Of a DNA stretch of 64,000 nucleotides, positions 29,187-55,105 are shown one piece after another. This DNA comes from Agromyces bracchium. GTDB lineage: Bacteria; Actinomycetota; Actinomycetes; Actinomycetales; Microbacteriaceae. A program made the translations under genes and the position numbers. The stretch is from assembly GCF_009709675.1 (NCBI RefSeq), contig NZ_WMLB01000033.1, positions 62,001 to 126,000 of the forward strand. Direction: 5' to 3'. The notes beneath the pieces were generated by a model. The model searched no databases. It saw only the letters and a program-made list of their open reading frames with translations, and was not told the origin of the DNA. Position 1 is the stretch's first letter. Every line of letters begins with the position of its first letter.

Positions 29187-30083
29187 GTGAATGCTCGCTA
29201 TGTGGTCCGTCGATCAGCCTCTGCCGTCTACGACGAGCCGGGTGGCCTGGCGCCGGGGTCGATCGGACTGACGCGGTGGCGCGCGGTGGGGTTCGAGGAC
29301 GGGGCTTCGCACACGGACTTCGGCGTCACGCGACTGGCGTCAGGAGGACGGGTGCCGGCGCACGTGCACTCGTTCGAGGAGTCCTTCCACATCCTCGACG
29401 GCGAAGTGGTGCTGACGACGGCTGAGACGACCGTGCACCTCGTCGCGGGCGACTACGGCGTGATTCCGGTGGGCATGCCGCATGCGTGGCAGTCGATCGG
29501 CGAGGCCGGGGCGGAGTGGGCGGACATCTTCGCGCCGCCGCCCCGGCAACGGTACGGATCGGACACGTATCGGGTCGCGGGGATCGTGCCGGGCGATCCG
29601 ATTCGCGTCGACCCGCGCGACCCGCGCACCCGCGCCTTCGGCGCGATCTCGACCGACCAGATGGACCCGCGGCGTCAGTCGCAGGAACTGCTCGCCCAGT
29701 CGGCGAGCATGCGCACCGCACTGCTCGTCTACAGCGGCATCTCGCTCAAGATGATGGTGGACTCCGACCTCGGCTCGGTGCTCTCGACGATGTTCATGGT
29801 GCAGTACGAGCCCGACGGCAAGGCAGGACCTCACGATCACCCGCTCGAGGAGGCCTACCTGATCCTCGATGGCGAGGTCGACGCGACGTTCGACGGGGAG
29901 ACGTTCCGCCTCGGGCCGCGCGACGTCGCCTGGGCCGGGGTCGGCTGCGTCCACTCGTTCCAGGCCACGGGTGCTCCGGTGCGCTGGCTCGAGACGCAGT
30001 CCCCGCAGATGCCGGCGCGGCACGCGTACCGCTTCCGGCGGGACTGGGACTACCTGACCGAGCGGCTGGAGGAGCGGGCATGA
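29187..30083 (+). CDS. Bicupin protein
   Basis: 298-residue protein with two cupin barrels. Cupin 1 has HVHSFEESFHILDGE and a PVGMPHAW ligand; cupin 2 has GPHDHPLEEAYLILDGEV and VGCVHSFQATG, so both metal sites look intact. The overall plan resembles ureidoglycine aminohydrolase-like or oxalate-decarboxylase-like bicupins, but the sequence differs from the allE product at 17077. GTG 29187 is chosen because GGAGG lies 6 bases upstream; an earlier ATG at 29136 would fall within the promoter. First gene of an island operon; its stop overlaps the next ATG. Confidence 0.82.
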   Translation: MNARYVVRRSASAVYDEPGGLAPGSIGLTRWRAVGFEDGASHTDFGVTRLASGGRVPAHVHSFEESFHILDGEVVLTTAETTVHLVAGDYGVIPVGMPHAWQSIGEAGAEWADIFAPPPRQRYGSDTYRVAGIVPGDPIRVDPRDPRTRAFGAISTDQMDPRRQSQELLAQSASMRTALLVYSGISLKMMVDSDLGSVLSTMFMVQYEPDGKAGPHDHPLEEAYLILDGEVDATFDGETFRLGPRDVAWAGVGCVHSFQATGAPVRWLETQSPQMPARHAYRFRRDWDYLTERLEERA

Positions 30084-30787
30084 GCGAGCGCACGACCGTC
30101 GTCGTCGGCGGGACCTCGGGGATCGGGCTCGAGATCGCGAAGGCGGTCGTCGCCCGGGGCGACCGCGTCGTCCTCACCGGCCGGGATCAGGCGCGCGCGA
30201 ACGAGGTCGCCGCGTCGATCGGCGATCGGGCGACCGGGGTGGCGGTCGACATCTCGGAGCCCGAGACGATCGCCGAGCGCCTCGCACCCATCGGCCCCGT
30301 GCACGGCCTCGTGCTCGCCGCGATCGAACGCCACGCCAACACCGTTCGCGAGTACGACGTCGCTCGCGCGACCCGGCTCGTCACCCTCAAGCTCGTCGGC
30401 TACACCCAGGTGGTCCACACGCTGCTCGGTCGCATGGAAGAGTCGGTCGACACCGGCATCGTGCTGTTCGGCGGACGCGCGAAGGACGCACCGTATCCGG
30501 GGTCGACCACGGTGTCGACCATCAACGGCGGCGTCGAGGGCCTCGTGCGCAGTCTCGCGCTCGAGCTCGCGCCGATGCGTGTCAACGGCCTGCACCCCGG
30601 GATCGTGGGCGACAGCCCGTTCTGGGCCGGCAAGCCCGAGGGCGTACTCGACGGGTACCGCTCCCGCACTCCCGGCGGCGAGCTGGCGACGATGGCCGAC
30701 ATCGTGGGCGCCACGGTGTTCCTGCTCGAGAACCGGGGCGTCTCGGGCACCAACCTGTGCGTCGACCGCGGGTGGCGCATCACCTGA
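30080..30787 (+). CDS. SDR-fold protein lacking the catalytic Tyr and Lys
   Basis: 235-residue short-chain dehydrogenase fold with a good cofactor motif (VVVGGTSGIGLEIAKAVVARG). The usual YxxxK is absent: in GSTTVSTINGGVEGLVRSL the expected Tyr and Lys positions are Val145 and Asn149, and the catalytic Ser region reads VLFGGRA. Downstream structure is normal (ALELAPMRVNGLHPGIV, then GTNLCVDRGW). It is either a non-oxidoreductase SDR (for example a lyase or isomerase) or a binding protein. ATGA overlap with the bicupin gene indicates joint function. Confidence 0.85.
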   Translation: MSERTTVVVGGTSGIGLEIAKAVVARGDRVVLTGRDQARANEVAASIGDRATGVAVDISEPETIAERLAPIGPVHGLVLAAIERHANTVREYDVARATRLVTLKLVGYTQVVHTLLGRMEESVDTGIVLFGGRAKDAPYPGSTTVSTINGGVEGLVRSLALELAPMRVNGLHPGIVGDSPFWAGKPEGVLDGYRSRTPGGELATMADIVGATVFLLENRGVSGTNLCVDRGWRIT

Positions 30788-30827: not shown

Positions 30828-32270
30828 ATGACCGACGCACCCGCACGACCCCGACCCGACGAGTTCGCCTCCGGTCGGCCCGTCGTCTTCCGGAACGCGA
30901 CGGTGATCACCGTCGACTCCCAGGGCGTGCTCGAGAACGCCGACGTGCTCATCAGCGGCGACACGATCGCCGGCGTGGGGCCGAAGCTCGAGGTGCCCGG
31001 CGACACGCTCGAGATCGATGCCTCCGGCGGCATCGTCATGCCCGGCATGATCGACACGCACCGCCACATGTGGCAGACGGGGCTGCGCGGCTACGGCGGC
31101 GATTGGGCGCTGAGCCAGTACTTCGTCTTCTACTACCTGACCTGGGGTGAGGTCTTCCGGCCGGAGGACATCTACGCGGGCAACTTGCTCAGCGCGCTCG
31201 AGTCGATCGACCAGGGCGTCACGACGACGCTCGACTGGTCGCATGCACTGCGCACGCCGGAGTACGGCGAGGCGGCGCTGCAGGCGTTCCGCGAGATACC
31301 CGGGCGCTTCGTGCTGGCGTACGGCAACTACCTCGGCGCACCGTGGGAGTGGGCGAACAGCCCGGAGTTCCGGACGTTCGTGACCGACAACTTCAACGCG
31401 CCCGACGACATGCTGGGCCTCCAGATGGCCTTCGACGTCCCGGCCAGCGAGGAGTTCCCGGAGGCGGCCGCGTTCCGGGCCGCTCGCGACCTCGACCTGC
31501 GGGTGACGACCCATGCCGGCGTCTGGGGCGTCACCACGGACCAGAGCATCGCGCACATGTACGACGGCGGATGGATGACCGACAAGGTCACCTACGTGCA
31601 CGGCTCATCGCTCAGTCCCGAGAGCTACCAGAAGATCGCCGCCACCGGCGGCACCGTCTCGGTCGCGACCGAGAGCGAGCAGAGCGCCGGACAGGGCTAC
31701 CCGTCGACCTGGGAGATCCGCAAGTACGGCATCCCGGCGTCGCTGTCGATGGACACGAGCGTGTGGTGGAGCGCCGACTTCTTCTCGGCGATGCGCGCGA
31801 CGCTCAGCGCGTTCCGCTCACGTGATCACCTCGAGCTGCAGTCCCGCGGTGAGACGGTCAACGTCAACCGGCTTCGCGCCGAGGACGTCGTGTGGCAGGC
31901 GACGATGGGCGGTGCCACGACGCTCGGAATGACCGACACGATCGGCTCGCTGACCGTCGGGAAGAAGGCAGACCTTGTGCTCATCAGGAACGACGAGTCG
32001 CCCGCGATGACGCCGATCCTGAACCCCTACGCCCACGTGGTGTACCAGGCGGGCACCGCCGACGTGCACACCGTCGTCGTGAACGGCAGGGTCGTGAAGT
32101 ACGACGGCGAACGCATCGGCCTACCGCTGGCGCCTGTACGTGACAAGGTCGCCGCATCCGTGAACCACGTGCGCAGCACGATGGGCAAGCAGGCGTGGGA
32201 CGAGTGGATGCACCCGCAGATCCCGGACGATGAGCCGATCGCGAACCCCTATCAGTACAAGGAGGACTAG
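30828..32270 (+). CDS. Amidohydrolase-superfamily deaminase/hydrolase (TrzN/AtzB-like)
   Basis: 480-residue metal-dependent hydrolase of the subtype III group (chlorohydrolase, MTA/SAH deaminase, guanine deaminase relatives). Metal ligands: GMIDTHRHMWQTGLRG (HxH), VTTHAGVWG (His), YVHGSSLS (His) and LSMDTSVWWSADFF (Asp); no carboxylated Lys, as expected for the subtype. C-terminal LTVGKKADLVLIRND and VVVNGRVVKYDG are family-typical. GAGGAGG precedes the ATG. Third gene of the bicupin-SDR operon; its substrate is likely a cyclic amide, amidine or aminated ring (inference). Confidence 0.85.
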   Translation: MTDAPARPRPDEFASGRPVVFRNATVITVDSQGVLENADVLISGDTIAGVGPKLEVPGDTLEIDASGGIVMPGMIDTHRHMWQTGLRGYGGDWALSQYFVFYYLTWGEVFRPEDIYAGNLLSALESIDQGVTTTLDWSHALRTPEYGEAALQAFREIPGRFVLAYGNYLGAPWEWANSPEFRTFVTDNFNAPDDMLGLQMAFDVPASEEFPEAAAFRAARDLDLRVTTHAGVWGVTTDQSIAHMYDGGWMTDKVTYVHGSSLSPESYQKIAATGGTVSVATESEQSAGQGYPSTWEIRKYGIPASLSMDTSVWWSADFFSAMRATLSAFRSRDHLELQSRGETVNVNRLRAEDVVWQATMGGATTLGMTDTIGSLTVGKKADLVLIRNDESPAMTPILNPYAHVVYQAGTADVHTVVVNGRVVKYDGERIGLPLAPVRDKVAASVNHVRSTMGKQAWDEWMHPQIPDDEPIANPYQYKED

Positions 32271-32328: not shown

Positions 32329-32778
32329 TCACGGCTTCGGGTACTGCCAGATCTCGAGCTGGATGCCGTCCGGGTCGCGGAGATACGCCCACTGCGAGCC
32401 CGCCAGATCGCCGTCGGTGAGGGTGACCGGGGGGCCGTTGAACACGGCGCCCTTGTCGATGAGGTCGTCGTACGCGCTCTGCATGTCATCGACCACGAAG
32501 CAGATGTGGGATGACCCGACGTCGCCGTTCGCGCGGTCCCAGTCCTTGCCCTCGGGGTGGTGGTACTCGAGGAACTCGATGTTGACGTTGCCGACCCTGA
32601 TCATCGAGAAGGACAGGTCGGCTCCGTCGACCTGGACGCCGCGCTCGAGGTCGGGGCCGGAGCCGTGATTCACCGGGCCCGGCTCGAACCCGAACATCCG
32701 CGAGTACCACTCGAACGACCGCTTCATGTCCCGGACGGTGATGCCCACGTGGTGGACGCCGTCGACGGTGAAAGTCAT
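32329..32778 (-). CDS. VOC-family (glyoxalase-like) protein
   Basis: 149-residue vicinal-oxygen-chelate protein with two beta-alpha-beta-beta-beta units. Metal-ligand positions look present: VHHVGITVRDM, IEFLEYHHPEG, SSHICFVVDD and IQLEIWQYP. VOC proteins may be dioxygenases, epimerases or lyases. GGAG precedes the ATG. The gene is divergent from the SDR at 33079 across a 300-base region that contains two island operators. Confidence 0.85.
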   Translation of the reverse strand: MTFTVDGVHHVGITVRDMKRSFEWYSRMFGFEPGPVNHGSGPDLERGVQVDGADLSFSMIRVGNVNIEFLEYHHPEGKDWDRANGDVGSSHICFVVDDMQSAYDDLIDKGAVFNGPPVTLTDGDLAGSQWAYLRDPDGIQLEIWQYPKP

Positions 32779-33078: not shown

Positions 33079-33858
33079 ATGACCCGACGTCTCGACGGCC
33101 GGACGATCGTCGTCACCGGTGGCGCATCGGGGATCGGTGCGGCGCTCGCTTCCGGGTTCGCCGCCGAGGGGGCGAACGTCGTGATCGCCGACCTCAACCT
33201 CGAGGCCGCGGAGGCTCTCACCTCCGAGATCGTCGAGTCCGGTGGCAGCGCGGTCGCCTCTCGGGTCGACGTCACCGACCGTGAATCGGTACGGGCCGGC
33301 ATCGCCCACGCCGTCGAGCGCTACGGTCGCCTCGACGCCTACTTCAACAACGCCGGGATGAACTCGCCGATGAAGTTCCTCGATATCACCGAGTCGAACT
33401 TCGAGCTCGTCATGCGCGTCAACGCGCTCGGCGTGCTCGTCGGGATCCAGGAGGCCGCGAAGCAGTTCATCGCGCAGGGCGGCGGGGGCAAGGTCGTGAA
33501 CACCGCCTCGATCGCGGGACGTCAGGGCTTCTCGAGCTTCGCACCGTACAGCGCGGCCAAGGCCGCCGTCATCTCCCTCACGCAGGCGGGCGCGCGCGCA
33601 CTCGCCGAGCACGGCATCACGGTCAACGGCTTCGCCCCGGGCGTCGTCGCGACGCCGCTCTGGACGAAGCTCGACAGGGAACTCGAGGAGATCGGCGAGG
33701 GCCAGAACGGCTTCGACTCGATGTCCAGCGGCATCCTGCTCGGCCGACCGGCAGACCCCTCCGACATCGTGCCGACCGGTGTCTTCCTCGCGGCGGCCGA
33801 TTCGGACTACATCACGGGGCAGATCATCCCCATCGAAGGCGGCATGATCCTCGTCTAG
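33079..33858 (+). CDS. Short-chain dehydrogenase (butanediol dehydrogenase-like)
   Basis: 259-residue classical SDR with complete motifs: VVTGGASGIGAALA (cofactor), YFNNAGMN, the catalytic Ser in VNTASIAG and YSAAK. DLN after the second strand favours NAD over NADP. Overall look is of meso-2,3-butanediol/sorbitol-type dehydrogenases. AAAGGAG precedes the ATG. It leads a run of five genes (SDR, M24 protein, three zinc-type dehydrogenases) to the terminator at 38510. Confidence 0.87.
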   Translation: MTRRLDGRTIVVTGGASGIGAALASGFAAEGANVVIADLNLEAAEALTSEIVESGGSAVASRVDVTDRESVRAGIAHAVERYGRLDAYFNNAGMNSPMKFLDITESNFELVMRVNALGVLVGIQEAAKQFIAQGGGGKVVNTASIAGRQGFSSFAPYSAAKAAVISLTQAGARALAEHGITVNGFAPGVVATPLWTKLDRELEEIGEGQNGFDSMSSGILLGRPADPSDIVPTGVFLAAADSDYITGQIIPIEGGMILV

Positions 33859-33893
33859 CGAGGTTCGGCCCGACACCGAGAGAGCGGTTCACC

Positions 33894-35276
33894 ATGAAGA
33901 GCACGGGTACGACCGGAACGAACGCGGTCGACTGGGAAGCGCGCGTCGACTTCGATCGACTCCGCGACGATCGGCTGGCTCGGCTGAAGGCCGAACTGGA
34001 CCGCTCCGACCTCGGGGCGTTGCTCGCCTTCGATTTCTCGAACATCCGCTACATGACGGCCACCCATATCGGGACGTGGGCGATGGACAAGCTGATCCGC
34101 TTCAGCCTCCTGACGCGCAACAGCGACCCGATCTCGTGGGACTTCGGCTCGGCGGCCAAGCATCACAAGCTCTACAACCCCTGGCTGGACGTGACGAGCG
34201 CCGAGATGGACGCCGACCCCGACGCGCCGCACGAAGGTGCGAAGCGCCCCCGGCTCGAGAGCGGGGCGCGGGCGGGCATCTCGACGCTGCGCGGCGCGTT
34301 CCCGCCGGACGCCGAGATCGCCGAGGGCGTCGCGAGGAAGATCAAGCGCGAACTCGAGAAGTTCGGCGTCGCGAACCAGCCGCTCGGAGTCGACGTCATC
34401 GAGCTGCCCATCCTCTTCGCCCTCCAGCGCGAGGGCATCAGGGTCGTGGACGGTCAGCAGGCCTTCATGGAGGCGCGACGCATCAAGACCGGCGACGAGA
34501 TCCGGCTCCTGACCCAGGCAGCGTCCATGGTGGATGCGGCCTACGAGGACCTCTATCGATTCCTCCGCCCCGGCGTGCGGGAGAACGAGGCGGTCGGGCT
34601 CGTCGCGAAGAGCCTGTACGACCTCGGATCCGAGTACGTCGAGGGCGTGAACGCGATCTCAGGCGAACGCTGCTCGCCGCACCCGCACGTGTTCTCCGAC
34701 CGGCTCATCCGGCCCGGAGACCCGGCCTTCTTCGACATCCTGCACAGTTTCAACGGCTACCGAACCTGCTACTACCGTACGTTCGCCGTCGGGTCCGCGA
34801 GCTCCGCGCAGAAGGACGCGTACACCAGGGCGCGCGAGTACATGGACCGCGCGATCGCGCTCGTCCGACCGGGTGCGACGACGGCCGACATCGTCTCGGT
34901 ATGGCCCAAGGCGGAGGAGTTCGGTTTCCCCGATGAGGAGGCTGCGTTCGCGCTGCAGTACGGCCACGGCGTGGGGCTGTCGATCTGGGAGAAGCCGATC
35001 TTCTCGAGGCTCGTCTCGTTCGACCACCCCGAGGTGATCGAGGAGGGCATGGTCTTCGCACTCGAGACGTACTGGCCGTCGGCCGACGGCTGGGGCGCCG
35101 CCCGCATCGAGGAGGAGGTCGTCGTCACGGCCGACGGGTGCGAGGTGATCACGAAGTTCCCCGCCGAAGAGCTGCTCGTGGCCGGCCAGCGGTACTACGC
35201 GGTGGGCGGCCCGCTGAACCTCACGCGCGACTCCCAGTCGCACCTCAACACCGAGTGGGGACGATCGGGCGAGTGA
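33894..35276 (+). CDS. M24 (creatinase/Xaa-Pro peptidase) family protein with altered metal site
   Basis: 460-residue pita-bread-fold protein. The N-terminal domain (GALLAFDFSNIRYMTATHIGTW) resembles creatinase, Xaa-Pro peptidase and DddP-type proteins. Of the five M24 ligands, Asp281 (FFDILHS), His358 (GHGVGLS), a Glu in MVFALETYW and a Glu in RIEEEVVV are present. The second Asp is replaced: the normal YxxDxTRT reads YRTCYYRT with Cys292. It may use an altered metal site like DddP or none like creatinase. In the island it more likely cleaves a C-N, C-S or amide bond of a small molecule than a peptide (inference). Confidence 0.8.
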   Translation: MKSTGTTGTNAVDWEARVDFDRLRDDRLARLKAELDRSDLGALLAFDFSNIRYMTATHIGTWAMDKLIRFSLLTRNSDPISWDFGSAAKHHKLYNPWLDVTSAEMDADPDAPHEGAKRPRLESGARAGISTLRGAFPPDAEIAEGVARKIKRELEKFGVANQPLGVDVIELPILFALQREGIRVVDGQQAFMEARRIKTGDEIRLLTQAASMVDAAYEDLYRFLRPGVRENEAVGLVAKSLYDLGSEYVEGVNAISGERCSPHPHVFSDRLIRPGDPAFFDILHSFNGYRTCYYRTFAVGSASSAQKDAYTRAREYMDRAIALVRPGATTADIVSVWPKAEEFGFPDEEAAFALQYGHGVGLSIWEKPIFSRLVSFDHPEVIEEGMVFALETYWPSADGWGAARIEEEVVVTADGCEVITKFPAEELLVAGQRYYAVGGPLNLTRDSQSHLNTEWGRSGE

Positions 35277-35287
35277 AGGAGACGGTC

Positions 35288-36370
35288 ATGACCACACCCG
35301 TGGGCAACATGGAGGCCGTCGTCTACCACGGTCGAGGCGACGTGCGTGTCGAGCGACGTCCGATTCCGATCGCGGCCGAGGGTCAAGCCCTCGTCAAGGT
35401 GCTGCGCAGCGGTATCTGCGGCACGGATGCCACCGAGTGGAAGTCCGGTCCCATCATCTTCCCGATCGATCGGGTGCATCCGAACAGCGGCCACACCGGT
35501 CCGCTGATCATCGGTCACGAGTTCGTCGGCGAGATCGTCGATCTCCCCGACGGGCCGGTCGACGGCCTGCAGGTCGGGGACCCGGTGGCATCCGGTGCGG
35601 GCGTCTCGTGCGGCGAATGCGATCGTTGCGTGGAGGGGCGGACGAACCTCTGCGCGCGATACGCGACGCATGGCCTGAACGCCGACGGGGGCCTGGCGGA
35701 GTACGTCGCGGTCGAGACGTCGACGCTCGTGCGGATTCCCGACGGATGTTCGCTGGACGACGCCGGAGTCGCCCAGCCGCTCGCCGTCGGGCTGCATGCC
35801 GCGCGCCGCGCCGGCGCCCGCGACGGTGACCACGTGATCCTGTTCGGCGCCGGCGCGATCGGCACCTTCATCCTCGCCGGGCTGGTCTCCCTGGTGGACG
35901 CGGACATCACGGTCGTGGACTTCGCCGGCGAGCGCCTCGAGCGCGCCCAGCGCCTCGGAGCCACCCGCACCGTCCCGGTCGACGCCGACCTGCTCCCCAC
36001 GCTGCGGGAGATCGTCGGCAGTGCCGGTGCCGACATCGTGATCGAGGCGACCGGCGCACCCGGACAGCTCTCGAACGCGCTCGACCTCGTGCGCCAGGGC
36101 GGGACGATCCTCGGTGTCGGATTGCCGTCGGCGCATCAGGACCTCGACGTGCACCGGCTGGTGATGAACGAGGTGACGATCACCACGACCGTCGCGCACG
36201 TCTGCGACGAGGACCTGGGGCCGGCACTCGAGATCCTCGCGACCACCGACCTCGGCGACGAACTCGTCGAGGCGGTCTACCCGCTCGCCGAGGTGCCGCA
36301 CCAGCTCGCGCGTCTCGCGAACGGCGAGATCCGCGGCAAGGTCCTGTTCGATCCGACTCGATCCTCCTGA
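35288..36370 (+). CDS. Zinc-type alcohol dehydrogenase 1
   Basis: 360-residue medium-chain dehydrogenase with catalytic-zinc ligands in GICGTDATEW and GHEFVGE and the structural-zinc cluster in SCGECDRCVEGRTNLC. The Rossmann motif is LFGAGAIGTFILAG; D in VVDF after strand 2 favours NAD. AAGGAG precedes the ATG. Shares an operon with two related dehydrogenases, suggesting successive oxidation of diol or sugar-like intermediates. Confidence 0.9.
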   Translation: MTTPVGNMEAVVYHGRGDVRVERRPIPIAAEGQALVKVLRSGICGTDATEWKSGPIIFPIDRVHPNSGHTGPLIIGHEFVGEIVDLPDGPVDGLQVGDPVASGAGVSCGECDRCVEGRTNLCARYATHGLNADGGLAEYVAVETSTLVRIPDGCSLDDAGVAQPLAVGLHAARRAGARDGDHVILFGAGAIGTFILAGLVSLVDADITVVDFAGERLERAQRLGATRTVPVDADLLPTLREIVGSAGADIVIEATGAPGQLSNALDLVRQGGTILGVGLPSAHQDLDVHRLVMNEVTITTTVAHVCDEDLGPALEILATTDLGDELVEAVYPLAEVPHQLARLANGEIRGKVLFDPTRSS

Positions 36371-36430
36371 ACGCCGTGGCCGCTGCGCCGACGCGGCGGT
36401 CGCCCCGAACCCAGAAAGGCAGCCAGTGCC

Positions 36431-37489: not shown

Positions 37490-37509
37490 ACGAAGGAGAT
37501 CCGAGCAAC

Positions 37510-38484: not shown

Positions 38485-38509
38485 CCTGCTTCGTCCTCCG
38501 AGACCGAAA

Positions 38510-38535: not shown

Positions 38536-38553
38536 GTCCGCTTCCGCCGCCGA

Positions 38554-44803: not shown

Positions 44804-44807
44804 TCGG

Positions 44808-46966: not shown

Positions 46967-46968
46967 TC

Positions 46969-48033
46969 ATGGACCTGAACGCGCTCCGCATCGCCGTCGT
47001 CGGCACCGGTGCGAACGGCGCGTCGATCGGCGCCGACCTGATCCGTGCCGGACTCGACGTGACCTTCATCGAGCAGTGGCCCGCGCACGTCGAGGCGATG
47101 CGGGCCGACGGGCTGACCGTGCACCTGCCGGACGAGACCCAAGTGACTCCGGTCGAGGCGTACCACCTCTGCCAGGTCGCCGAGCTGCGGACCACCTTCG
47201 ACCTGGTGTTCACCTCGGTCAAGACCTATGACACACGGTGGGCATGCGAACTCATGAAGCCGGTCATGCGCGACGACTCGGTCATGGTGGGCCTCCAGAA
47301 CGGCATGACGATCGATGCGGTCGGCGACATCCTCGGCGCCCACCGGTCGATCGGGGCGGTCCTCGGGATCGCGGCGAACATGTTCGAGCCCGGGGTGGTC
47401 GTGCGCCAGGTCCCGCCGTCCGGCACGTGGTTCACGGTCGGCACGATGGACGGTCGCCGCACCGAACGCCTCGAGCAGGTCGCCGCGGCGCTCGCCCACG
47501 CGGGCGTCACCGAGGTCAGCGACGACATCCGCTCGTCGAAGTGGATGAAGCTCATCGCCAACATCCCCGAGATGCTCCCGTCGGCGATCCTCGGCGTGCC
47601 GCTGCTCGCCGCCGTCGCGCTCGAGGGCGTGCGCTCCGTGATGGACGCGGCCTCCCGAGAGGCCTACGCGCTGGCCACGGACCTCGGAATCCGCATGCTG
47701 CCCGTTCTCGGCAAGACGGTCGAGCAGGTCCCGGACTCCGACCAGTACGCGCTGGACCTTCTCGACGTCGTGCTCGAGCGCTTCTCGCTGCCCGACACGC
47801 GCGTGGCCGTGCTGCAGGACTGGGACAAGGGCCGTCGAGCCGAGCTCGACGCGTTCAGCGGCTACATCGTCGCGAAGCGGGCCGCGATCGGCGGCCGGGC
47901 GCCGGTGAACGAGGCGATCCTGGGCCTCGCGGAACGGATCGAGGCCGGGGAGCTCTCCCCGTCGCCCGACAACGCGGCGAGCCTCGTGGCGTCGGCGGCG
48001 TCTGCCGCTGCGGACGCGATTCAGCGTTCGTAG
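46969..48033 (+). CDS. Ketopantoate-reductase-family dehydrogenase, paralogue 3
   Basis: 354 residues. Rossmann motif IAVVGTGANGASIGADL, KTYDTRWACEL, VGLQNGMT and VAVLQDWDKGRRAELDAFSG are conserved. The catalytic segment reads SSKWMKLIANIPEML: Lys and Asn are kept but the AAE shared by the other two is changed to IPE, so it is the most divergent copy. GAGGAGG precedes the ATG, two bases after paralogue 2. Its last 13 bases overlap the convergent Dabb gene. Confidence 0.85.
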   Translation: MDLNALRIAVVGTGANGASIGADLIRAGLDVTFIEQWPAHVEAMRADGLTVHLPDETQVTPVEAYHLCQVAELRTTFDLVFTSVKTYDTRWACELMKPVMRDDSVMVGLQNGMTIDAVGDILGAHRSIGAVLGIAANMFEPGVVVRQVPPSGTWFTVGTMDGRRTERLEQVAAALAHAGVTEVSDDIRSSKWMKLIANIPEMLPSAILGVPLLAAVALEGVRSVMDAASREAYALATDLGIRMLPVLGKTVEQVPDSDQYALDLLDVVLERFSLPDTRVAVLQDWDKGRRAELDAFSGYIVAKRAAIGGRAPVNEAILGLAERIEAGELSPSPDNAASLVASAASAAADAIQRS

Positions 48034-48320
48034 TCGACAACCGCGCGTTCGGCCACGATCGCATCAATGGTCGCGACCGCCCGTCGGTGCGCCGGGTGGT
48101 CCTGATAGCGGGCGAGATCGTCCCACGAGTCGTGCTCGGTCTCGAGCACCGCGTGCCAGTGCCGATCGATCGTCCCGGGGTCGGCCGAGACGCGGAGGCT
48201 CAGCACGCCGGGCACGGATGTCGCGAGCGGTTCCAGCGCGTCGCGCAGGGTCTCGAATGGGCGGGGCACGGCTCCGGGGACGGGATCGGTCAGCTTGAAC
48301 AGCACGACGTGGCGGATCAT
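48021..48320 (-). CDS. Dabb-domain protein
   Basis: 99-residue stress-responsive A/B-barrel protein (ferredoxin-like dimeric fold). Family marks are the MIRHVVLFKL start, the central HWHAVLETEHDSWDDLARYQDHPAH and a short C-terminal helix. Dabb proteins include small cyclases, decarboxylases and isomerases in catabolic clusters. Its ATG overlaps the stop of the dehydrogenase upstream (ATGA); its 3' end overlaps the convergent paralogue-3 gene. Confidence 0.88.
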   Translation of the reverse strand: MIRHVVLFKLTDPVPGAVPRPFETLRDALEPLATSVPGVLSLRVSADPGTIDRHWHAVLETEHDSWDDLARYQDHPAHRRAVATIDAIVAERAVVDYER

Positions 48321-49231
48321 GCGATGCCCATCTCGTCTCCGAGGGAGCCCCGGGTTCGTCGAGCCCTCGTGACTTCTGCGACCGCCGACCAGTCGAGTTC
48401 GCGCAGTGCGGGGTCGGCGAGTGCCGCCTCGAACACGTCCCGCAGGACCGGCGCGACCGGGAGGGTCACTCCGAGCGAATCGGCGGCACCCTCGGCCAGG
48501 GAGAGATCCTTCAGCCCGAGTGACATCGCGAAGCCCACGGGCTCGTAGCGGCGGCCGGCGATGAGCGGGCCGTAACCTCGATGGGCCGAGCCGCTGAACG
48601 CGGTGTGGGTCAGGATGTCCACGAACTCCTGGGGATCGATCCGCGCCGACTCGACGAGCACCACCGACTCCGCGATCGACTGCAGGGCATTGATGATCGA
48701 GTAGTTCACCGCGATCTTCACGATGCTCGCCATCTTCGGATCGGCGCCGAGGTTCCAGACGCGCTGGCCGAGACGTTCGAGCGTGGGCATGCCGGCGTCG
48801 ATCGCGGCGGCGTCGCCGGATACGACGACGAGGAGCGCGCCCGTGGATGCGACGGTCGACCTGCCGAGCACAGGGGCCTGCACGTAGCCGATTCCGCGGC
48901 GTGCGTGTCGCTCCGCGAGCTCGCTCGCGGCGGTGGGGCTGATGGTCGCATGGTTCACATGGACCCGCCCGGGCGGGATCCCAGCGAGAAGCCGATCGTC
49001 GAACAGCGAGAGGACGGCCTCGTCATCGGTGAGCATCGAATGGACGACACGGGCTCGCGAGAAGACCTCGTCGGGAGACGCCGCGGTGCCGATGGCGAAC
49101 CGTTCGGCAAGTTCCTCCGCGCGGCCGGGGCTTCGGTTCCAAGCGACGACATCGACGCCCTCGTCGACGAGCCGCTCCACCATTCCGCGACCCATCGCGC
49201 CCAGGCCGAGGAAGCCCACTTCCAGATCCAC
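48317..49231 (-). CDS. 3-hydroxyisobutyrate-dehydrogenase-family protein
   Basis: 304-residue beta-hydroxyacid dehydrogenase. Rossmann start VGFLGLGAMGRGMVERL, VNHATISPTAASELAERHARRG (substrate loop), QAPVLGRSTVASTGALLVVVSG, and the catalytic Lys in MASIVKIAVNYSIIN. GLKDLSLAEGAADSLG follows as expected. ATG 49261 gives a 10-residue longer form; GTG 49231 is preferred because GAGGAGG lies 6 bases upstream and the start then aligns with the family. Co-translated with the Dabb gene. Confidence 0.87.
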   Translation of the reverse strand: MDLEVGFLGLGAMGRGMVERLVDEGVDVVAWNRSPGRAEELAERFAIGTAASPDEVFSRARVVHSMLTDDEAVLSLFDDRLLAGIPPGRVHVNHATISPTAASELAERHARRGIGYVQAPVLGRSTVASTGALLVVVSGDAAAIDAGMPTLERLGQRVWNLGADPKMASIVKIAVNYSIINALQSIAESVVLVESARIDPQEFVDILTHTAFSGSAHRGYGPLIAGRRYEPVGFAMSLGLKDLSLAEGAADSLGVTLPVAPVLRDVFEAALADPALRELDWSAVAEVTRARRTRGSLGDEMGIA

Positions 49232-49414: not shown

Positions 49415-50167
49415 ATGCAATTGGATGTCGGGTCGGAACTCCGCCGCGTGCGGGAGTCGCGGAAGCTCAGTCTCCGCAATGTCGCAGGCGCCGTGGGCGT
49501 TTCCGCGAGCCTGCTGTCGCAGGTCGAGACGGGGAAGACCCAGCCGTCGGTGAGTACCCTCTACGCGCTCGTGAACTACCTCGGCATCTCGCTCGATGGG
49601 CTGATGGGCACGAGTCGTGCCGGGGCGCCGTCACTCGGCGTCGCGAACCCCGCCGTCGAGTCGACGCCGTCGGGCACCAGGTCGAGCGATGCGGTGGTCC
49701 AGCGTCGCGAGGACAACCCGGTGATCGAGATGGAGAACGGCGTCACCTGGGAGCGACTCGCCGTCGGCGCGAGTTCCGTGGCGGACCCGCTCATCGTGAC
49801 CTACGAGCCGTCCGCGTCCAGTTCCATGGAGGGCAAGATGATGCGTCATGCGGGGCTGGAGTACGGCGTCCTGCTCGAGGGCGCGTTGACCTTGCGCATC
49901 GACTTCGACACCTATGAGCTCGCACCGGGCGACTCGTTCTGCTTCGACTCGGGTCGCCCGCATCTCTACGTGAACCAGTCCGATCAGCCGGCGCGAGGCA
50001 TCTGGTTCGTGATCGGCCGACGTGACATGTCGTACCAGTCGCTCGCGGACCTGGGCCACGAGCAGCCGGGTGATCCGCGCCCGATCGCCTCGGCCGTCGA
50101 TGTCCTCCATGCGATGAAGTCGATGCGCTCCGCCCCGAGCGCCGGCGCCGACGGTCCCGGGGCCTGA
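49415..50167 (+). CDS. XRE-family regulator with C-terminal cupin
   Basis: 250-residue regulator. The N-terminal helix-turn-helix is typical (residues 5-60: LRRVRESRKLSLRNVAGAVG, then VSASLLSQVETGKTQPSVSTLY). A linker of about 60 residues leads to a cupin ligand-binding domain (EYGVLLEGALTLRIDFDTYEL and GDSFCFDSGRPHLYVN). XRE-cupin proteins usually sense a pathway metabolite. Its own promoter carries the 17-bp palindrome that recurs upstream of three other island units, so it is the best candidate for that regulon's regulator (inference). AGGAGA precedes the ATG. Confidence 0.9.
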   Translation: MQLDVGSELRRVRESRKLSLRNVAGAVGVSASLLSQVETGKTQPSVSTLYALVNYLGISLDGLMGTSRAGAPSLGVANPAVESTPSGTRSSDAVVQRREDNPVIEMENGVTWERLAVGASSVADPLIVTYEPSASSSMEGKMMRHAGLEYGVLLEGALTLRIDFDTYELAPGDSFCFDSGRPHLYVNQSDQPARGIWFVIGRRDMSYQSLADLGHEQPGDPRPIASAVDVLHAMKSMRSAPSAGADGPGA

Positions 50168-50182: not shown

Positions 50183-50863
50183 TCATCCGGAGGTCGTGAA
50201 GACCTCCGGATGCCGCGAAAGCAGCCTCCGCGTACGCCGGATGTGACCTTCGATCGTGCGCGCGGCGCCTTCGACATCCCCTTCGCGGAGTGCGACGACC
50301 ATCAGGTGATGCTCGTCGTGCATGATCCGTCTGGTGTCCGCGTCGGCCAGTACGGTGTACGCGCGGCGGTAGGGCTGGGTAAGGTTCCAGAGCCGTTCGA
50401 CCAGGTCGCCGAGCATGAGCGTCTCGGCGCGAGAGTAGCTGAGCATGTGGAACTCGCGATCGACGCGCACGAACTCGCCGACGTCGTCGGTCGAGGACAT
50501 CGCCGCCGCGAGCTCCTCGAGGCGGTCGAGGTCGGCCTCCGACAGGTGGGGCGCAGAGTGCGCGAGCAGGAGCGGCTCCAACCGCTCGCGCGTCTGGTAG
50601 ACCTCTTCGCACTCGGCGAGGGTGAGCCGGGAGACCCAGGCCCCGGCGTTCGGCACGAGTGTCACCAGACCCTCCGCCTCGAGCGATTTCAGGGCCTCGC
50701 GCACCGGAACTCGGCTCGCGCCGAAGCGCTCGGCGATCTCCTCCTGGCGCAGGCGCGAACCCGGGGCGAGGTCGCCGTGCGCGATCGCGTCGCGGATGCC
50801 GCTGGCGACGCGCATCGCGGCATTGCCGTCGCGCGACGCCGGCGCTTGCAGGTCCGACGTCAT
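50183..50863 (-). CDS. GntR-family regulator, FCD type
   Basis: 226-residue FadR-subfamily regulator. The winged HTH is near residues 17-75 (GDLAPGSRLRQEEIAERFGA, SRVPVREALKSLEAEGLV). The all-helical FCD effector domain has the metal-site pattern VDREFHMLSYS (Asp, His), HDEHHLMVVALREGDVEGA (His) and EGHIRRTRR (His). Effectors of FCD proteins are mostly carboxylic acids. ATGA overlap with the VOC gene upstream. The likely target is the palindrome in the E1/E2 promoter 600 bases away. Confidence 0.92.
   Translation of the reverse strand: MTSDLQAPASRDGNAAMRVASGIRDAIAHGDLAPGSRLRQEEIAERFGASRVPVREALKSLEAEGLVTLVPNAGAWVSRLTLAECEEVYQTRERLEPLLLAHSAPHLSEADLDRLEELAAAMSSTDDVGEFVRVDREFHMLSYSRAETLMLGDLVERLWNLTQPYRRAYTVLADADTRRIMHDEHHLMVVALREGDVEGAARTIEGHIRRTRRLLSRHPEVFTTSG
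50184..50212. terminator. Hairpin between XRE-cupin and GntR genes
   Basis: CATCCGGAGGTC (50184-50195) and GACCTCCGGATG (50201-50212) form a perfect 12-bp stem with a GTGAA loop. It lies 16 bases after the XRE stop and within the last ten codons of the convergent GntR gene, so it can act on the plus-strand transcript. Confidence 0.65.
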
Positions 50864-51384
50864 GCGAGTGGATCCCGAGGGTCCCAGAGCTTGACGGTGG
50901 ACCCCGCCTCATAGGCCTTGCCCTGCGGGAAGCTCACGAGCTCCAACTGCATCCCCCAAGGGGCGAGGAAGTAGACCCAGCGCTGCCCCTCGCTCGCGTT
51001 CCGACTCGCGGTCGGATCTCCGAGGATGCGCACGCCGTGCTCGCGAAGGTGGGTGATCGCCGCGTCGAGATCGTCGACGTAGAACGCGAGGTGGTGACCG
51101 CCGATGTCGCTGTTGCGCGGCTGCGAGGCTTGACCGTCCGCCGGCTCCCACTGGAAGACCTCGAAGTTCGGCCCGTGTCCGCAGCGGAAGAATCGCAGCT
51201 CGCGCATCACGGATCGCGGGTGGACGTTGAGGTGCTCGGCCATCCATTCGTCTTCCCGCTGGAACGGACCGAGCGTGTAGACGTACTCGCAACCGATGAC
51301 GTCCACGAAGAAGCGGTGCGCCTCGTCGAGGTCCGGGACCGTGAACCCGATGTGCTCAGTTCCCCTCAAGCCCGGCAAACCCAT
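50860..51384 (-). CDS. VOC-family dioxygenase-like protein
   Basis: 174-residue vicinal-oxygen-chelate protein. Metal-ligand candidates: GTEHIGFTVPDL (His), FEVFQWEP (Glu), GGHHLAFYVDD (His) and MQLELVSFPQG (Glu). Longer than the VOC protein at 32329 and not closely similar. Its stop overlaps the GntR start. Leftward transcription begins in the same gap that carries the E1/E2 promoter, so VOC-GntR and E1-E2 are divergent. Confidence 0.85.
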   Translation of the reverse strand: MGLPGLRGTEHIGFTVPDLDEAHRFFVDVIGCEYVYTLGPFQREDEWMAEHLNVHPRSVMRELRFFRCGHGPNFEVFQWEPADGQASQPRNSDIGGHHLAFYVDDLDAAITHLREHGVRILGDPTASRNASEGQRWVYFLAPWGMQLELVSFPQGKAYEAGSTVKLWDPRDPLA

Positions 51385-51551: not shown

Positions 51552-53738
51552 ATGCCGAGACGACGACGCCTCGAAACCACCCCCGAGTGGGTCGAACTCA
51601 CGACGACCGCAGCGGACTGGAAGAGCGCCGACCCGGCACTCCTCGAGACGATGCTGGGTCAGCTCCACCTGATCCGCGCGTTCGAGGAGCGCGTGCTCGA
51701 GCTCGCCGCCGACGGCCTGGTCCATGGTCCGGCGCACTCGTCGATCGGGCAGGAGGGGGGCGCCGTCGGTTCGATCGTCGCGTTGCGGTCGACCGACGCC
51801 GTCAACGGTTCGCACCGAGGTCATCACCAGTTCCTCGCGAAGGCCATCACGCATGCCTCCGCTGGGCGGCTCGATCTCGGGCGGCTGGTCACCGACGACG
51901 TGCAGGCCGTGCTTCAGCGCACCCTCGCCGAGATCCTCGGACTCGCGCAGGGCTTCTGCCGCGGCCGAGGCGGTTCCATGCACCTGCAGTGGTTCGAGGC
52001 CGGCGCGCTCGGCACGAACGCGATCGTCGGCGGCGGCGCGCCGATGGCGACCGGAAACGCCTGGGCGCAGAAGCATGCGGGCACGACCGACCTCACGATC
52101 AACTACTTCGGCGACGGCGCCGCGCAGATCGGCTCGGTGCTCGAGTCGATGAACCTCGCTGCCGCGTGGAAGCTCCCCGTCTGCTTCTTCATCGAGAACA
52201 ACCTCTACGCGGTCTCGACGCGCATCGAGGAGGCCGTCGCCGACACCCGCCTCTCTGTTCGCGGCCAGGGTTTCGGCATCCCGTCGTGGCGGGTCGACGG
52301 CATGGACCCGCTGGCGGTGCACCTCGCGATGCAGGAGGCCGCCGAGGTCATGCGCTCGGGCGGCGGACCGGTCATCGTCGAGGCCGAGGTCTACCGGTAC
52401 TTCCACCAGAACGGCCCGTACCCGGGCAGCGCCTTCGGCTACCGCACGAAGGAGGAGGAGGCGGAGTGGCGCGAGCGCGACCCGCTCGAGCGCGTCGCGA
52501 CCGAGCTCATCCGCCTGGGCCGGCTGACCCGCGAGCAGGTCGACGCCGTGCGCGAGCAGGCGGTCGCCGCGATGGACGCCGCCACCCGCGAACTGCTCGA
52601 GGACGACCCCGAGACGAAGGGGCGCCGCCGCATCCGCCCCGAACTCTGGCCCGACCCCGAGTTCGTCGACATCGGCGTGCGCGGCGACGGGAGCGAGCTC
52701 GGCGAGCTGCGCACCCTCGAGCCGACCGACGACGACCGCGAGCGCGAGAGCCTGAAGTTCGTCGACGCGGTCGCTGGCGTCATGGAGCGCCGCATGGGGG
52801 AGGACGAGCGGATCATCGTGCTCGGCGAGGACGTGCATCGGCTGAAGGGCGGTACGAACGGCGCGACGAAGGGTCTGTCGACGGCCTACCCCGAGCGCGT
52901 GCTCGGCACTCCGATCAGCGAGAACGCGTTCGCCGGCCTCGGCGGCGGTCTCGCGCTCGACGGCCGTTTCCGGCCAGTGGTCGAGTTCATGTACCCGGAC
53001 TTCATGTGGGTGGCCGCCGATCAGGTGTTCAACCAGATCGGCAAGGCCCGGCACATGTTCGGCGGCGACAATCCGGTGCCGCTCGTGCTCCGCACCAAGG
53101 TCGCCATGGGCTCGGGCTACGGCTCGCAGCACCTGATGGATCCGGCGGGGATCTTCGCGACGAGTCCCGGATGGCGCATCGTCGCCCCATCGACGGCCGA
53201 GGACTACGTCGGCCTCATGAACGCCGCGCTCGCCCTGCAGGACCCCGTGCTCGTCATCGAGCACGTCGACCTCTACAACGAGAAGGACACGATCATCGCG
53301 GGCGACCTCGACTACGTGATCCCGCCCGGCACCGCCGCCATCCGTCGCGAGGGTGCCGAGGTCACCGTCATCAGCTACCTCTCGATGGTGCGGCACAGCC
53401 TCGAGGCGATCGAGCAGACCGGCGTCGACGCCGAGCTCATCGATCTTCGCTGGCTCGACCGGGCCTCGATCGACTGGGCCACCATCGAGTCGAGCGTGAA
53501 GAAGACGAATGCGGTGCTCATCGTCGAGCAGGGTGCGCAGGGCACGTCGTACGGCGGATGGCTCGCCGACGAGATCCAGCGCCGGCTCTTCGACTGGCTG
53601 GATCAGCCCGTGCAGCGGGTCACGGGCTCCGAGACGTCGCCGTCGATCTCGAAGGTGCTGGAACGCGCGGCGATCGCCCGGACCGAGGAGGTCGTCACGG
53701 CACTCGAGACCGTGCGCGCGAACGCGGGAGGTGCGTGA
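51552..53738 (+). CDS. Fused E1 alpha-beta of a 2-oxo-acid/acetoin dehydrogenase complex
   Basis: 728-residue thiamine-diphosphate enzyme in which alpha (about 1-370) and beta (about 400-728) subunits form one chain. The alpha half has GSHRGHHQFLAKAI, RGRGGSMHL and the ThDP motif NYFGDGAAQIGSVLESMNLA to IENN (187-216). The beta half has LGEDVHRLKGGTNGATKGL, TPISENAFAGLGGGLALDG and EFMYPDFMWVAADQ. Decarboxylates a 2-oxo acid, or cleaves acetoin, passing the acyl group to E2. With butanediol-type dehydrogenases in the island, acetoin is a candidate. TGATG overlap with the E2 gene. Confidence 0.88.
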   Translation: MPRRRRLETTPEWVELTTTAADWKSADPALLETMLGQLHLIRAFEERVLELAADGLVHGPAHSSIGQEGGAVGSIVALRSTDAVNGSHRGHHQFLAKAITHASAGRLDLGRLVTDDVQAVLQRTLAEILGLAQGFCRGRGGSMHLQWFEAGALGTNAIVGGGAPMATGNAWAQKHAGTTDLTINYFGDGAAQIGSVLESMNLAAAWKLPVCFFIENNLYAVSTRIEEAVADTRLSVRGQGFGIPSWRVDGMDPLAVHLAMQEAAEVMRSGGGPVIVEAEVYRYFHQNGPYPGSAFGYRTKEEEAEWRERDPLERVATELIRLGRLTREQVDAVREQAVAAMDAATRELLEDDPETKGRRRIRPELWPDPEFVDIGVRGDGSELGELRTLEPTDDDRERESLKFVDAVAGVMERRMGEDERIIVLGEDVHRLKGGTNGATKGLSTAYPERVLGTPISENAFAGLGGGLALDGRFRPVVEFMYPDFMWVAADQVFNQIGKARHMFGGDNPVPLVLRTKVAMGSGYGSQHLMDPAGIFATSPGWRIVAPSTAEDYVGLMNAALALQDPVLVIEHVDLYNEKDTIIAGDLDYVIPPGTAAIRREGAEVTVISYLSMVRHSLEAIEQTGVDAELIDLRWLDRASIDWATIESSVKKTNAVLIVEQGAQGTSYGGWLADEIQRRLFDWLDQPVQRVTGSETSPSISKVLERAAIARTEEVVTALETVRANAGGA

Positions 53739-55105
53739 TGGCCACGACCGTCCGCATGCCCGAGGTACTCGCGAACACGACCGAAGCCGCGATCCAGTCC
53801 TGGTCGGTGGCGGTGGGCGACGCGGTCGCCGTGGGGCAGCCGCTCGCCGAGATCGAGACCGACAAGGCGGTCGTCGAGTACGCGGCGGAGGTCTCCGGCA
53901 CCGTGCTCGAGCTGCTCGTCGCCGAGGGCGACCTCGTCGACGTGGGCGCGCCGATCGCCGTGGTCGGGGAGCCCGGTGAGACGGCGACGGATGCCGCGCC
54001 CCCGCCGGCCGCGCCGACGGTTGCCGCACCCGCCGATCCCGAGTCCGCATCGCCGGTCGCCGACGCCGAAGCCGCCTTCGATGAGGTGGCCCGGGGCGTG
54101 TCGCAGCACGACCTCGCCGAGCCCGAAGCGGGCACGAACGCGGGCGGGGCCGCGGGTGGGAACTCGGCCTCCGGCCGACGGTTCATGAGTCCCCTGGTCC
54201 GACGGCTCGCCCGTGAGCACGGCATCGACCTCTCCGGGGTTTCCGGGTCGGGGCCGGAGGGGCGAATCGTCCGCAGGGACGTCGAACCCCTGATCGATGC
54301 GAAGGCCTCCGGCGCGACGGCATCCGCCCCGGCCACGACGCCGTCGACCGCGCCCGCGTCGCCGGCACCGGCCGCGGCGCCCGCGGCGACGGCATCGGCC
54401 CCCGCGCCCTCGGCGCCCGCGGCTGCCGACGCCGAGCTCATCCCGCACACGCGCATGCGGCGCACGATCGCGCGTCGTCTCGTCGAGTCGAAGACCCAGG
54501 TGCCGCACTTCTACCTCACGGCCGAGTGCCGGGTGGACCGGCTGCTCGAGTTGCGCCGCGAGCTCAACTCGTCCGGCACCCTGAAGATCTCGGTCAACGA
54601 CCTGGTGGTCAAGGCCGTCGCCGGCGCGTTCGCCGACGTGCCCGAGGCGAACCGCACGTGGACGGATGAGGGCGTGCTGCAGCATCGCACGGTCGACGTG
54701 GCGATCGCCGTCGCGATCGACGACGGACTCGTGACGCCCGTCATCCGCGGCGTCGAGGCGCTCAGCGTCTCGGAACTCGGCCGCCGCATCGCCGACCTGG
54801 CCGGGCGCGCTCGCAGCGGAGGGCTCCGCCAGCACGAGATCGAGGGCGGCAGCTTCTCGGTGTCGAACCTCGGCATGTACGGCACGCGCGAGTTCAGTGC
54901 CATCATCAATCCGCCGCACGCGGGAATCCTCGCGGTCGGCGCGGCCCGGGAGGCACCGGTCGTCGTCGACGGCGCGCTCGCGGTCGGCACCGTCATGAAC
55001 GTGGCGCTCTCGGCCGACCACAGGGTCCTGGACGGCGCCGTGGCGGCCAGGTGGCTGTCGGCGTTCGTCGCGAGGATCGAGCACCCCGTGACGATCCTCG
55101 CCTGA
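53738..55105 (+). CDS. E2 dihydrolipoyl acyltransferase
   Basis: 455-residue E2. One N-terminal lipoyl domain (EIETDKAVVEY, lipoyl Lys43), an Ala/Pro linker, a peripheral-subunit-binding domain (FMSPLVRRLAREHGIDL, GSGPEGRIVRRDV, about 147-187), a second Ala/Pro/Ser linker, and the catalytic domain with SADHRVLDGAVAARW (His428). Transfers the acyl group from E1 to CoA. No E3 gene follows; lipoamide dehydrogenase must come from elsewhere. Confidence 0.94.
   Translation: MATTVRMPEVLANTTEAAIQSWSVAVGDAVAVGQPLAEIETDKAVVEYAAEVSGTVLELLVAEGDLVDVGAPIAVVGEPGETATDAAPPPAAPTVAAPADPESASPVADAEAAFDEVARGVSQHDLAEPEAGTNAGGAAGGNSASGRRFMSPLVRRLAREHGIDLSGVSGSGPEGRIVRRDVEPLIDAKASGATASAPATTPSTAPASPAPAAAPAATASAPAPSAPAAADAELIPHTRMRRTIARRLVESKTQVPHFYLTAECRVDRLLELRRELNSSGTLKISVNDLVVKAVAGAFADVPEANRTWTDEGVLQHRTVDVAIAVAIDDGLVTPVIRGVEALSVSELGRRIADLAGRARSGGLRQHEIEGGSFSVSNLGMYGTREFSAIINPPHAGILAVGAAREAPVVVDGALAVGTVMNVALSADHRVLDGAVAARWLSAFVARIEHPVTILA

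Follow-up and report, generated by a model that had tools for sequence, protein, structure and literature searches.

A conserved catabolic island of Agromyces bracchium and a possible M24- and E1/E2-dependent route from hydroxyquinol

The degradation of hydroxyquinol (1,2,4-trihydroxybenzene) by the intradiol pathway proceeds by way of hydroxyquinol 1,2-dioxygenase, maleylacetate reductase and 3-oxoadipate, and its end products are C2 and C4 units, which would match those that we propose below for a block of 23 genes (29136–55105, by gene calling) in Agromyces bracchium. The block lies in a 64,000-nucleotide stretch of assembly GCF_009709675.1 (contig NZ_WMLB01000033.1, positions 62,001–126,000, forward strand), which we call the window. 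The same importer and several of the same upper genes are joined to the intradiol pathway in all eight plasmid records described below; the window, in contrast, has neither of the two enzymes, and an M24-fold protein and an E1/E2 complex stand in their place. Azoarcus anaerobius reportedly possesses an anaerobic hydroxyhydroquinone/hydroxybenzoquinone pathway with a pyruvate-dehydrogenase-like complex; in both systems a complex resembling 2-oxo-acid dehydrogenases would attack this ring, although the island belongs to aerobic actinobacteria and has an M24 protein and a cyclitol-type upper part. A precedent for the retro-Claisen ring opening that we propose for the M24 protein is the dihydrophloroglucinol cyclohydrolase of Clostridium scatologenes, which is reported to open a cyclic 1,3-diketone in this way as a hydrolase of an amide-hydrolase-like family; it differs in belonging to the cyclase family rather than to M24 and in serving a 1,3,5-triol rather than a 1,2,4-triol (PMC10470551). 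The sad cluster of sulfonamide degraders resembles the island in the M24, RidA, HIBADH-like and SDR genes that follow sadB/sadC, and differs in its upper part, which is SadABC rather than an importer and dehydrogenases. Searches of the open-licence PMC literature for the M24/E1 gene set, for the Azoarcus genes and for cyclitol together with hydroxyquinol returned no paper on the present system; its parts are known families and its node is a known intermediate, and the combination is not described in the literature so searched.

We judge the chances about even that the block is a two-part catabolic system whose lower part replaces hydroxyquinol 1,2-dioxygenase and maleylacetate reductase; its reactions and its imported substrate are all inferred from gene content and comparison. 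The upper part (33079–48033) consists of the importer, an intact SDR enzyme (SDR2), three MDR dehydrogenases (ADH1–3), an enone reductase of the PRISE family, VOC1 and three ketopantoate reductase (KPR) paralogues, and would import a small compound, polyhydroxylated and probably alicyclic, which it would convert to hydroxyquinol or to its keto tautomer, cyclohexane-1,2,4-trione. Hydroxyquinol is the enol form of this trione, which holds both a 1,2- and a 1,3-diketone. In the lower part, made up of the M24 protein, the HIBADH-like enzyme, VOC2 and E1/E2, for which the rest of the genome would supply E3 and an aldehyde dehydrogenase, the M24 protein would hydrolyse the C3–C4 bond of the 1,3-diketone to give 4,5-dioxohexanoate; the formulas agree, as hydroxyquinol (C6H6O3) plus water gives C6H8O4, that of 4,5-dioxohexanoic acid. 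A dehydrogenase would then reduce one ketone to form an acyloin, an analogue of acetoin, which VOC2 may isomerise and which E1/E2 would cleave in the manner of acetoin dehydrogenase to acetyl-CoA and succinate semialdehyde, the latter being oxidized to succinate by the aldehyde dehydrogenase.

The exchange of the lower part became apparent when the substrate-binding protein of the importer was used as a specific marker, matching 18 plasmid records at 1e-20, eight of them at an identity of at least 60% (64–66%). All eight were read (Loktanella, Rhizobium WL3, two strains of R. tumorigenes, R. jaguaris, R. rhododendri, R. rhizoryzae and Sinorhizobium B11), and in every one the importer adjoins an intradiol dioxygenase and a maleylacetate reductase. 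ADH2 and ADH3 are present in 8/8, a KPR in 7/8 and PRISE in 5/8; all eight also hold Gfo/Idh/MocA and YciI genes, and four of them a Dabb gene. No match to M24, E1 or E2 was found at E 1e-3 in the 35–41 kb of any of these records. The plasmid dioxygenase is of the hydroxyquinol type, matching 6-chlorohydroxyquinol dioxygenase (PDB 8r2x) at 1.9e-101 and hydroxyquinol dioxygenase (1tmx) at 6e-72, with a weaker match to catechol 1,2-dioxygenase (1.9e-38), and the reductase is nearest to maleylacetate reductase 3hl0 (4e-123). Three of the ten weaker records (L199, L200 and L201) were also read; they have other gene sets and were excluded from the counts. In these, a distant importer (binding protein 36–41%, fused ABC protein 40–47%) accompanies ene-reductase, cyclase-family, F420 and mycofactocin-type genes, and the fused importer family may specialize in alicyclic compounds.

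In a set of 394 actinomycete genomes, on the other side of the exchange, the binding protein was found at 1e-40 in eight, our own included, and M24 was present in all eight (P 3e-8). The seven others have binding proteins of 62–66% identity (five genomes) or 36–40% (two) and M24 in 7/7, and their flanks (40 kb in five, 20 kb in two) gave no match at 1e-3 to the dioxygenase or the reductase. Neither enzyme was found in any of the 18 M24 loci that carry three or more of six upper genes, loci that had been preselected for M24. The three PF00775 matches of the A. bracchium genome are pcaH, pcaG and one 37-bit protein with Dioxygenase_C only and no Dioxygenase_N; no hydroxyquinol 1,2-dioxygenase gene was found in the window or among these matches, and a search for maleylacetate reductase, confined to the scanned proteins of the window, found none. 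The comparisons thus demonstrate gene content, conservation and an exchange of modules around hydroxyquinol. That the M24/E1 set takes the place of the dioxygenase and reductase is well supported by gene context, and this swap behind the same upper genes, together with the link to SadB described below, points to hydroxyquinol or its keto tautomer as the probable shared node.

The M24 and fused E1 genes are themselves tightly associated. Among the 394 genomes, M24 was found in 48 and the fused E1 in 28, with both in 23, compared with an expected 3.4 (Fisher P 2e-19); with our own genome excluded, 22 are shared of 47 and 27 (P 1e-18). The two genes share a contig and are no more than 17 kb apart in 19 of these 23 genomes. 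Whole-genome searches were made in 42 genomes drawn from the M24 loci, mainly named isolates, and all 42 encode a fused E1 whose best copies are 67–94% identical; in some M24 loci a split E1 (32–38%), outside the threshold for the fused form, replaces it. Five of five Rhodobacterales plasmids show the order SDR, M24, E1a, E1b, lipoyl protein, succinate semialdehyde dehydrogenase (SSADH), E2. The island is patchy, as binding protein, M24 and fused E1 were found in none of the six same-genus genomes of the 394-genome class draw.

The genes of the block are as follows.

29136–30083, forward: bicupin, probable separate feeder (PF07883 twice)
30080–30787, forward: SDR without YxxxK (PF13561; motif absent)
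30828–32270, forward: amidohydrolase, PRK08204/TRZ-ATZ type (PF01979; NF006056 373.6 bits, below cut-off 391)
32329–32778, reverse: VOC1 (PF00903)
33079–33858, forward: SDR2, butanediol/polyol-dehydrogenase-like (YxxxK present; TIGR02415 243 bits, below cut-off 304)
33894–35276, forward: M24-fold protein, proposed ring (beta-diketone) hydrolase (PF00557)
35273–36370, forward: ADH1, MDR family (PF08240/PF00107; nearest models Tdh, IolM and IdnD, all below cut-off)
36431–37489, forward: ADH2, butanediol-dehydrogenase-like MDR (best PDB match 6ie0, (R,R)-butanediol dehydrogenase, 1.9e-72)
37510–38484, forward: ADH3, short MDR (PF00107; nearest model IolM, below cut-off)
38554–39633, reverse: PRISE enone reductase (PF22917; best PDB match 6el3)
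39975–40991, forward: importer permease (PF02653)
41055–42167, forward: substrate-binding lipoprotein (PF13407; LVGC lipobox-like start)
42266–44803, forward: fused ATPase-permease, 845 aa (two ABC_tran stretches and BPD_transp_2)
44808–45842, forward: KPR1 (TIGR00745 164.4 bits, over cut-off 141.35)
45839–46966, forward: KPR2 (TIGR00745 167.8 bits, over cut-off 141.35)
46969–48033, forward: KPR3 (TIGR00745 136.1 bits, just below cut-off 141.35)
48021–48320, reverse: Dabb protein (PF07876)
48317–49231, reverse: HIBADH-like dehydrogenase (PF03446/PF14833)
49415–50167, forward: XRE-cupin regulator (PF01381 and PF07883)
50183–50863, reverse: GntR/FCD regulator (PF00392 and PF07729)
50860–51384, reverse: VOC2, proposed metal-dependent enolising isomerase (invariant H/E ligands; glyoxalase-like predicted model)
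51552–53738, forward: fused E1 alpha/beta, thiamine diphosphate-dependent type (PF00676, PF02779, PF02780)
53738–55105, forward: E2 lipoyl acyltransferase (PF00198, PF02817, PF00364)

The M24 protein is, to judge from its residues, not an ordinary peptidase. Of the five metal ligands (D-D-H-E-E) that we take to define M24 metallopeptidases, alignment with solved prolidases shows four to be kept, namely the first Asp, the His and the two Glu residues, while the second Asp is replaced by Cys292. This position, that of MetAP D108, is Cys in 104/104 aligned family members, among them Rhodobacterales proteins (54–56% identical) and one haloarchaeal protein (37%). The position of aminopeptidase P His361 is Trp in 94/94 close relatives and His in 9/9 relatives at 50–70%. 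The predicted model, of low confidence in the active-site region (mean pLDDT 62.5), matches prolidase, DddP and creatinase structures. DddP, a dimethylsulfoniopropionate lyase, and creatinase are likewise metabolic members of the M24 fold, but DddP keeps the Asp metal ligand that is Cys in the island protein; a role as such a lyase was rejected, DddP (NF043017) being the best NCBIfam hit at only 106.3 bits against a cut-off of 600. The haloarchaeal relative (Natrialba plasmid, L161 11971–14343), which has the same Cys for Asp, adjoins an LLM flavin enzyme.

Another enzyme assigned to the lower part, VOC2, has four residues, H11, E75, H98 and E148, that are invariant in 22 sequences, and these four H/E ligands would suit an enolising isomerase. 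Its predicted model (pLDDT 84.8) is glyoxalase-like. VOC2 could instead be an oxygen-dependent ring-cleavage dioxygenase, with E1/E2 taking its 2-oxo-acid product and the M24 protein hydrolysing a later intermediate: L-DOPA dioxygenase and chlorohydroquinone dioxygenase are among the many VOC folds that the model matches, and VOC2 adjoins E1 in many loci. We regard this as improbable, since the H-E-H-E ligand set is presumably that of glyoxalase-type enzymes, the best structural matches are glyoxalase-like, and relatives of VOC2 (38–53%) occur in four of the eight plasmid records that already hold a hydroxyquinol dioxygenase.

The assignment of an acyloin to E1/E2, in the reading with hydroxyquinol as the node, is harder to draw from homology. 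In scans with E1-beta, most homologues are named as pyruvate or unspecified enzymes, acoB appearing at 35% in 2/60 among the matches listed, and such names do not separate pyruvate from acyloin specificity. For both E1 and E2 the best-scoring models and structures are those of pyruvate dehydrogenase, which weighs against an acyloin and makes a 2-oxo acid the plain reading of the substrate. The M24 protein might on this basis cleave C2–C3, and E1/E2 would then convert the product, 2,5-dioxohexanoate (a true 2-oxo acid), to 4-oxopentanoyl-CoA (levulinyl-CoA). We consider this alternative unlikely, because it leaves unexplained the SSADH genes that recur beside E1. An SSADH of the conserved type (at least 63% identical) is present in 12/80 M24 loci, in one case scoring above the cut-off of the NADP-SSADH model (734.7 against 730 bits), and an aldehyde dehydrogenase was found in 13/39 E1 loci vs 5/41 other loci.

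For the upper part, the ribose-type importer, the IolM- and butanediol-dehydrogenase-like enzymes, an IolG-like enzyme and an EboE-family protein all point to a cyclitol as the substrate. The importer has the Peripla_BP_4, BPD_transp_2 and tandem ABC_tran domains of the ribose type (CUT2), and no substrate-specific NCBIfam model exceeds its cut-off among the matches listed; the IolG-like enzyme is the Gfo/Idh protein of the rhizobial version (105 of 355 bits), and the EboE-family TIM-barrel protein occurs in 9/89 loci. In one M24 island (L146, 16801–18009), the latter matches NF035939 at 389 bits over 250, unexpectedly for a 'metabolite traffic' gene. The three KPRs, ApbA/PanE paralogues of 48–56% mutual identity, are scored by TIGR00745, a ketopantoate reductase subfamily model that does not indicate the substrate, and both the catalytic-Cys and the structural-Cys motifs were looked for in ADH3 and not found. 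The PRISE protein matches PF22917 (59.9 bits over 27) and, at full length, progesterone 5-beta-reductase (6el3, residues 9–359, 2.8e-79); KHY at 117 and NFYY at 147, which we assume to supply the catalytic Lys and Tyr of enone reductases, are present, placed by motif rather than by structure. We know of no role for this common bacterial family, whose members of about 50–65% identity (L032–L071) occur in roughly a tenth of the genomes of the taxonomic order, mostly outside such islands: of 42 strong matches, 40 were used (own genome and G143 being left out), and 36 of these 40 neighbourhoods lack island genes except for generic SDR, ADH, ABC, KPR and GntR matches.

A cyclitol substrate would also suit a route in which the M24 protein acts earlier, on a cyclic 1,3-diketone formed by cyclitol oxidation, so that hydroxyquinol is never formed in actinobacteria; the model for this is IolN, which is said to hydrolyse a cyclic 1,3-diketone in the Thermotoga inositol pathway. 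ADH1–3 are nearest to IolM-type and polyol/butanediol dehydrogenases, the EboE-family protein is present in some loci, and the Rhodobacterales clusters pair M24 with SDRs and a ribose-type importer, without a hydroxyquinol-forming enzyme. We hold this route to be rather doubtful, because these upper genes lead to a hydroxyquinol dioxygenase in 8/8 plasmid records and because M24 also adjoins SadB, an enzyme reported to form 1,2,4-trihydroxybenzene. As to the conversion of a cyclitol to hydroxyquinol, inositol less three H2O gives C6H6O3, as does quercitol less two H2O and 2 H; the direct path from myo-inositol was rejected, as no clean stepwise route could be drawn even though the formulas balance. 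Chemical precedents for inositol-to-benzenetriol conversions are described in a review (PMC11467972). Two other candidates were set aside: a breakdown of the pantothenate/valine type, for which no search was made and which the KPRs, the HIBADH-like enzyme and the branched-chain-type E1 would fit but the M24, importer and PRISE genes do not; and the phloroglucinol route, whose cyclohydrolase is of the cyclase family and not M24 (PMC10470551).

SadB provides the second link of the M24 protein to hydroxyquinol. It lies near M24 in 4/80 M24 loci (L108, L109, L110 and L133), and M24 relatives (83–87%) adjoin it on two Paenarthrobacter plasmids (L152 and L153). In Microbacterium BR1, SadB and SadC are reported to convert 4-aminophenol to 1,2,4-trihydroxybenzene ahead of mineralization (PMC5693940, restated in PMC10873849), and a table in a review lists RidA as induced in a sulfamethazine degrader (PMC11446756). 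About 20 kb of L153 holds SadB (73%), an amidase, E1, E2, VOC2, RidA, ECH, HIBADH and M24, and SadB is more diverged in L108, L133 and L153 (69–83%). The L153 segment (3062–22027, a plasmid of Paenarthrobacter ureafaciens SD-1) also holds a branched-chain-type importer, and its gene set looks like an N-acyl-aminophenol (paracetamol-like) pathway.

Beyond the scores of E1 and E2, several observations weigh against the hydroxyquinol reading. L109, L110 and L152 have their sad segment in common as a single mobile piece, with ECH, RidA and lpdA 100% identical, so these three loci are not independent. A sadABC-bearing Leucobacter, HA-1, releases trihydroxybenzene, which a partner strain with a dioxygenase reportedly consumes (PMC12285269). 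A catechol/hydroxyquinol dioxygenase of the Dioxygenase_N type exceeds the cut-off in nine of the 42 M24 genomes, the other 33 being without it; the nine include that of BR1, the mineralization by which may therefore use a dioxygenase, and no such enzyme exceeds the cut-off in M. lacus SDZm4 (L109). In L149, M24 and a dioxygenase (46%) are 9 kb apart, and a dioxygenase (47%), a reductase (41%) and M24 share the same 37 kb in Rhodococcus opacus (L154). Most of the upper genes are locally absent in 62/80 M24 loci, and the common variant with two amidohydrolases supplies M24 from an unexplained source. The fused E1 occurs without M24 in 5/28 E1 genomes and in 4/4 plasmid loci, L164–L167, which appear from their gene content to be a sister use of the E1/E2 complex; these loci (Caballeronia, Pseudomonas, Phaeobacter and Citricoccus plasmids) hold the fused E1 (62–70%), E2, VOC and SDR genes and, in two, a 'shikimate dehydrogenase'. 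Finally, the window contains no SSADH or E3 gene, and the aldehyde dehydrogenases of the genome all fall below the SSADH cut-off (best 475.7 of 730).

The conservation of the block as a whole was assessed from a scan with an M24 alignment, which gave at least 500 relatives, the best (closest) 80 loci being analysed; several of these are truncated, and 52 exceed 20 kb. The closest M24 relative (97%) is that of Agromyces sp. NDB4Y10 (L072), in which the genes from bicupin to KPR1 are kept in identical order at 78–97%. Matches of at least 40% identity within the 80 loci were found for HIBADH in 57, XRE in 44, VOC2 in 43, GntR in 42, E1 in 40, E2 in 29, ADH1 in 27, ADH2 and ADH3 in 26 each, the SDR without YxxxK in 25, SDR2 in 23, the permease in 22, the fused ABC protein in 20, PRISE in 18, VOC1 in 17, the binding protein in 16 and Dabb in two. 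The loci come in two flavours, one like the window and a second in which M24, HIBADH, XRE, GntR/VOC2 and E1/E2 are accompanied by two amidohydrolases and another importer. This second form was seen in L075, L077, L078, L080, L083, L086, L087, L105 and L107, the amidohydrolases being of the PRK08204 type and the importer a related one (38–44%).

The genes are real, and the block, confirmed as a conserved, modular system, is neither a chance assembly nor unique. The sequence-only reading of this DNA had assigned the same families, and gene calling and Pfam domains agree with it across the block, including the XRE-cupin and GntR/FCD regulators and the SDR at 30080–30787 that it described as lacking catalytic residues, with small corrections: its four dehydrogenases are all present, but as three MDR (zinc-type) enzymes and one intact SDR (33079–33858). 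The catabolic and transport island that it described, with uptake, redox, enone-reductase and acyl-CoA-forming parts, is borne out, and the fused ABC gene, KPR and PRISE, the co-occurrence of which it proposed to check, were found together in other genomes; three KPR copies are not a conserved trait, KPR1, KPR2 and KPR3 being matched in 16, 12 and four of the 80 loci. Its view that no known pathway could be recognized stands in so far as the searches run matched no complete characterized pathway, but the joining of the alphaproteobacterial importer and several upper genes to hydroxyquinol dioxygenase and maleylacetate reductase puts the block at hydroxyquinol and upstream of it, and the interpretation as a whole is partly supported. 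That the block is just a loose collection of unrelated catabolic operons, sharing no pathway, might be read from the bicupin–SDR–amidohydrolase trio, which is separable (bicupin in 8/80 loci, amidohydrolase in 15/80), and from the KPR copy number and gene order, which differ between loci; content and order are conserved in distant genera, however, and the M24–E1 association contradicts such a reading for the core genes, so that we find it very hard to credit.

The G+C content dips mildly across the block. To its left lie housekeeping genes and, at 9162–21119, genes whose N-termini resemble those of xanthine dehydrogenase, allantoin/urate and ureidoglycine genes, by eye a purine catabolism region; to its right are an APH(6)-like gene, HerA and tRNA-Ser. 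The first of these (55122–55955, reverse strand), directly after E2, belongs to the APH(6)/hydroxyurea kinase family by its PF04655 match of 246 bits; we read it as outside the island.

In its widest form the proposal is more tentative: that Actinobacteria, Rhodobacterales and perhaps haloarchaea possess a common oxygen-independent breakdown of hydroxyquinol in its trione form, by retro-Claisen opening through a non-peptidase M24 enzyme with the Asp-to-Cys metal site and by thiamine diphosphate/lipoyl cleavage, fed in the window by an imported cyclitol that is dehydrated and aromatized, is a possibility that we advance with some doubt. If true, it would give a central aromatic intermediate a lower pathway that dispenses with the oxygen-dependent ring cleavage assumed for aerobes, and would assign a first role to a very common gene of the 'Xaa-Pro peptidase family', of which the genome collection contains at least 500 relatives. 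For sulfonamide degraders it would offer a candidate for the step that opens the ring after SadB, which is as yet undescribed. Cyclitol-like plant compounds would then reach central metabolism through hydroxyquinol, and the breakdown of a carbohydrate-like compound via an aromatic-ring intermediate would be a new route.

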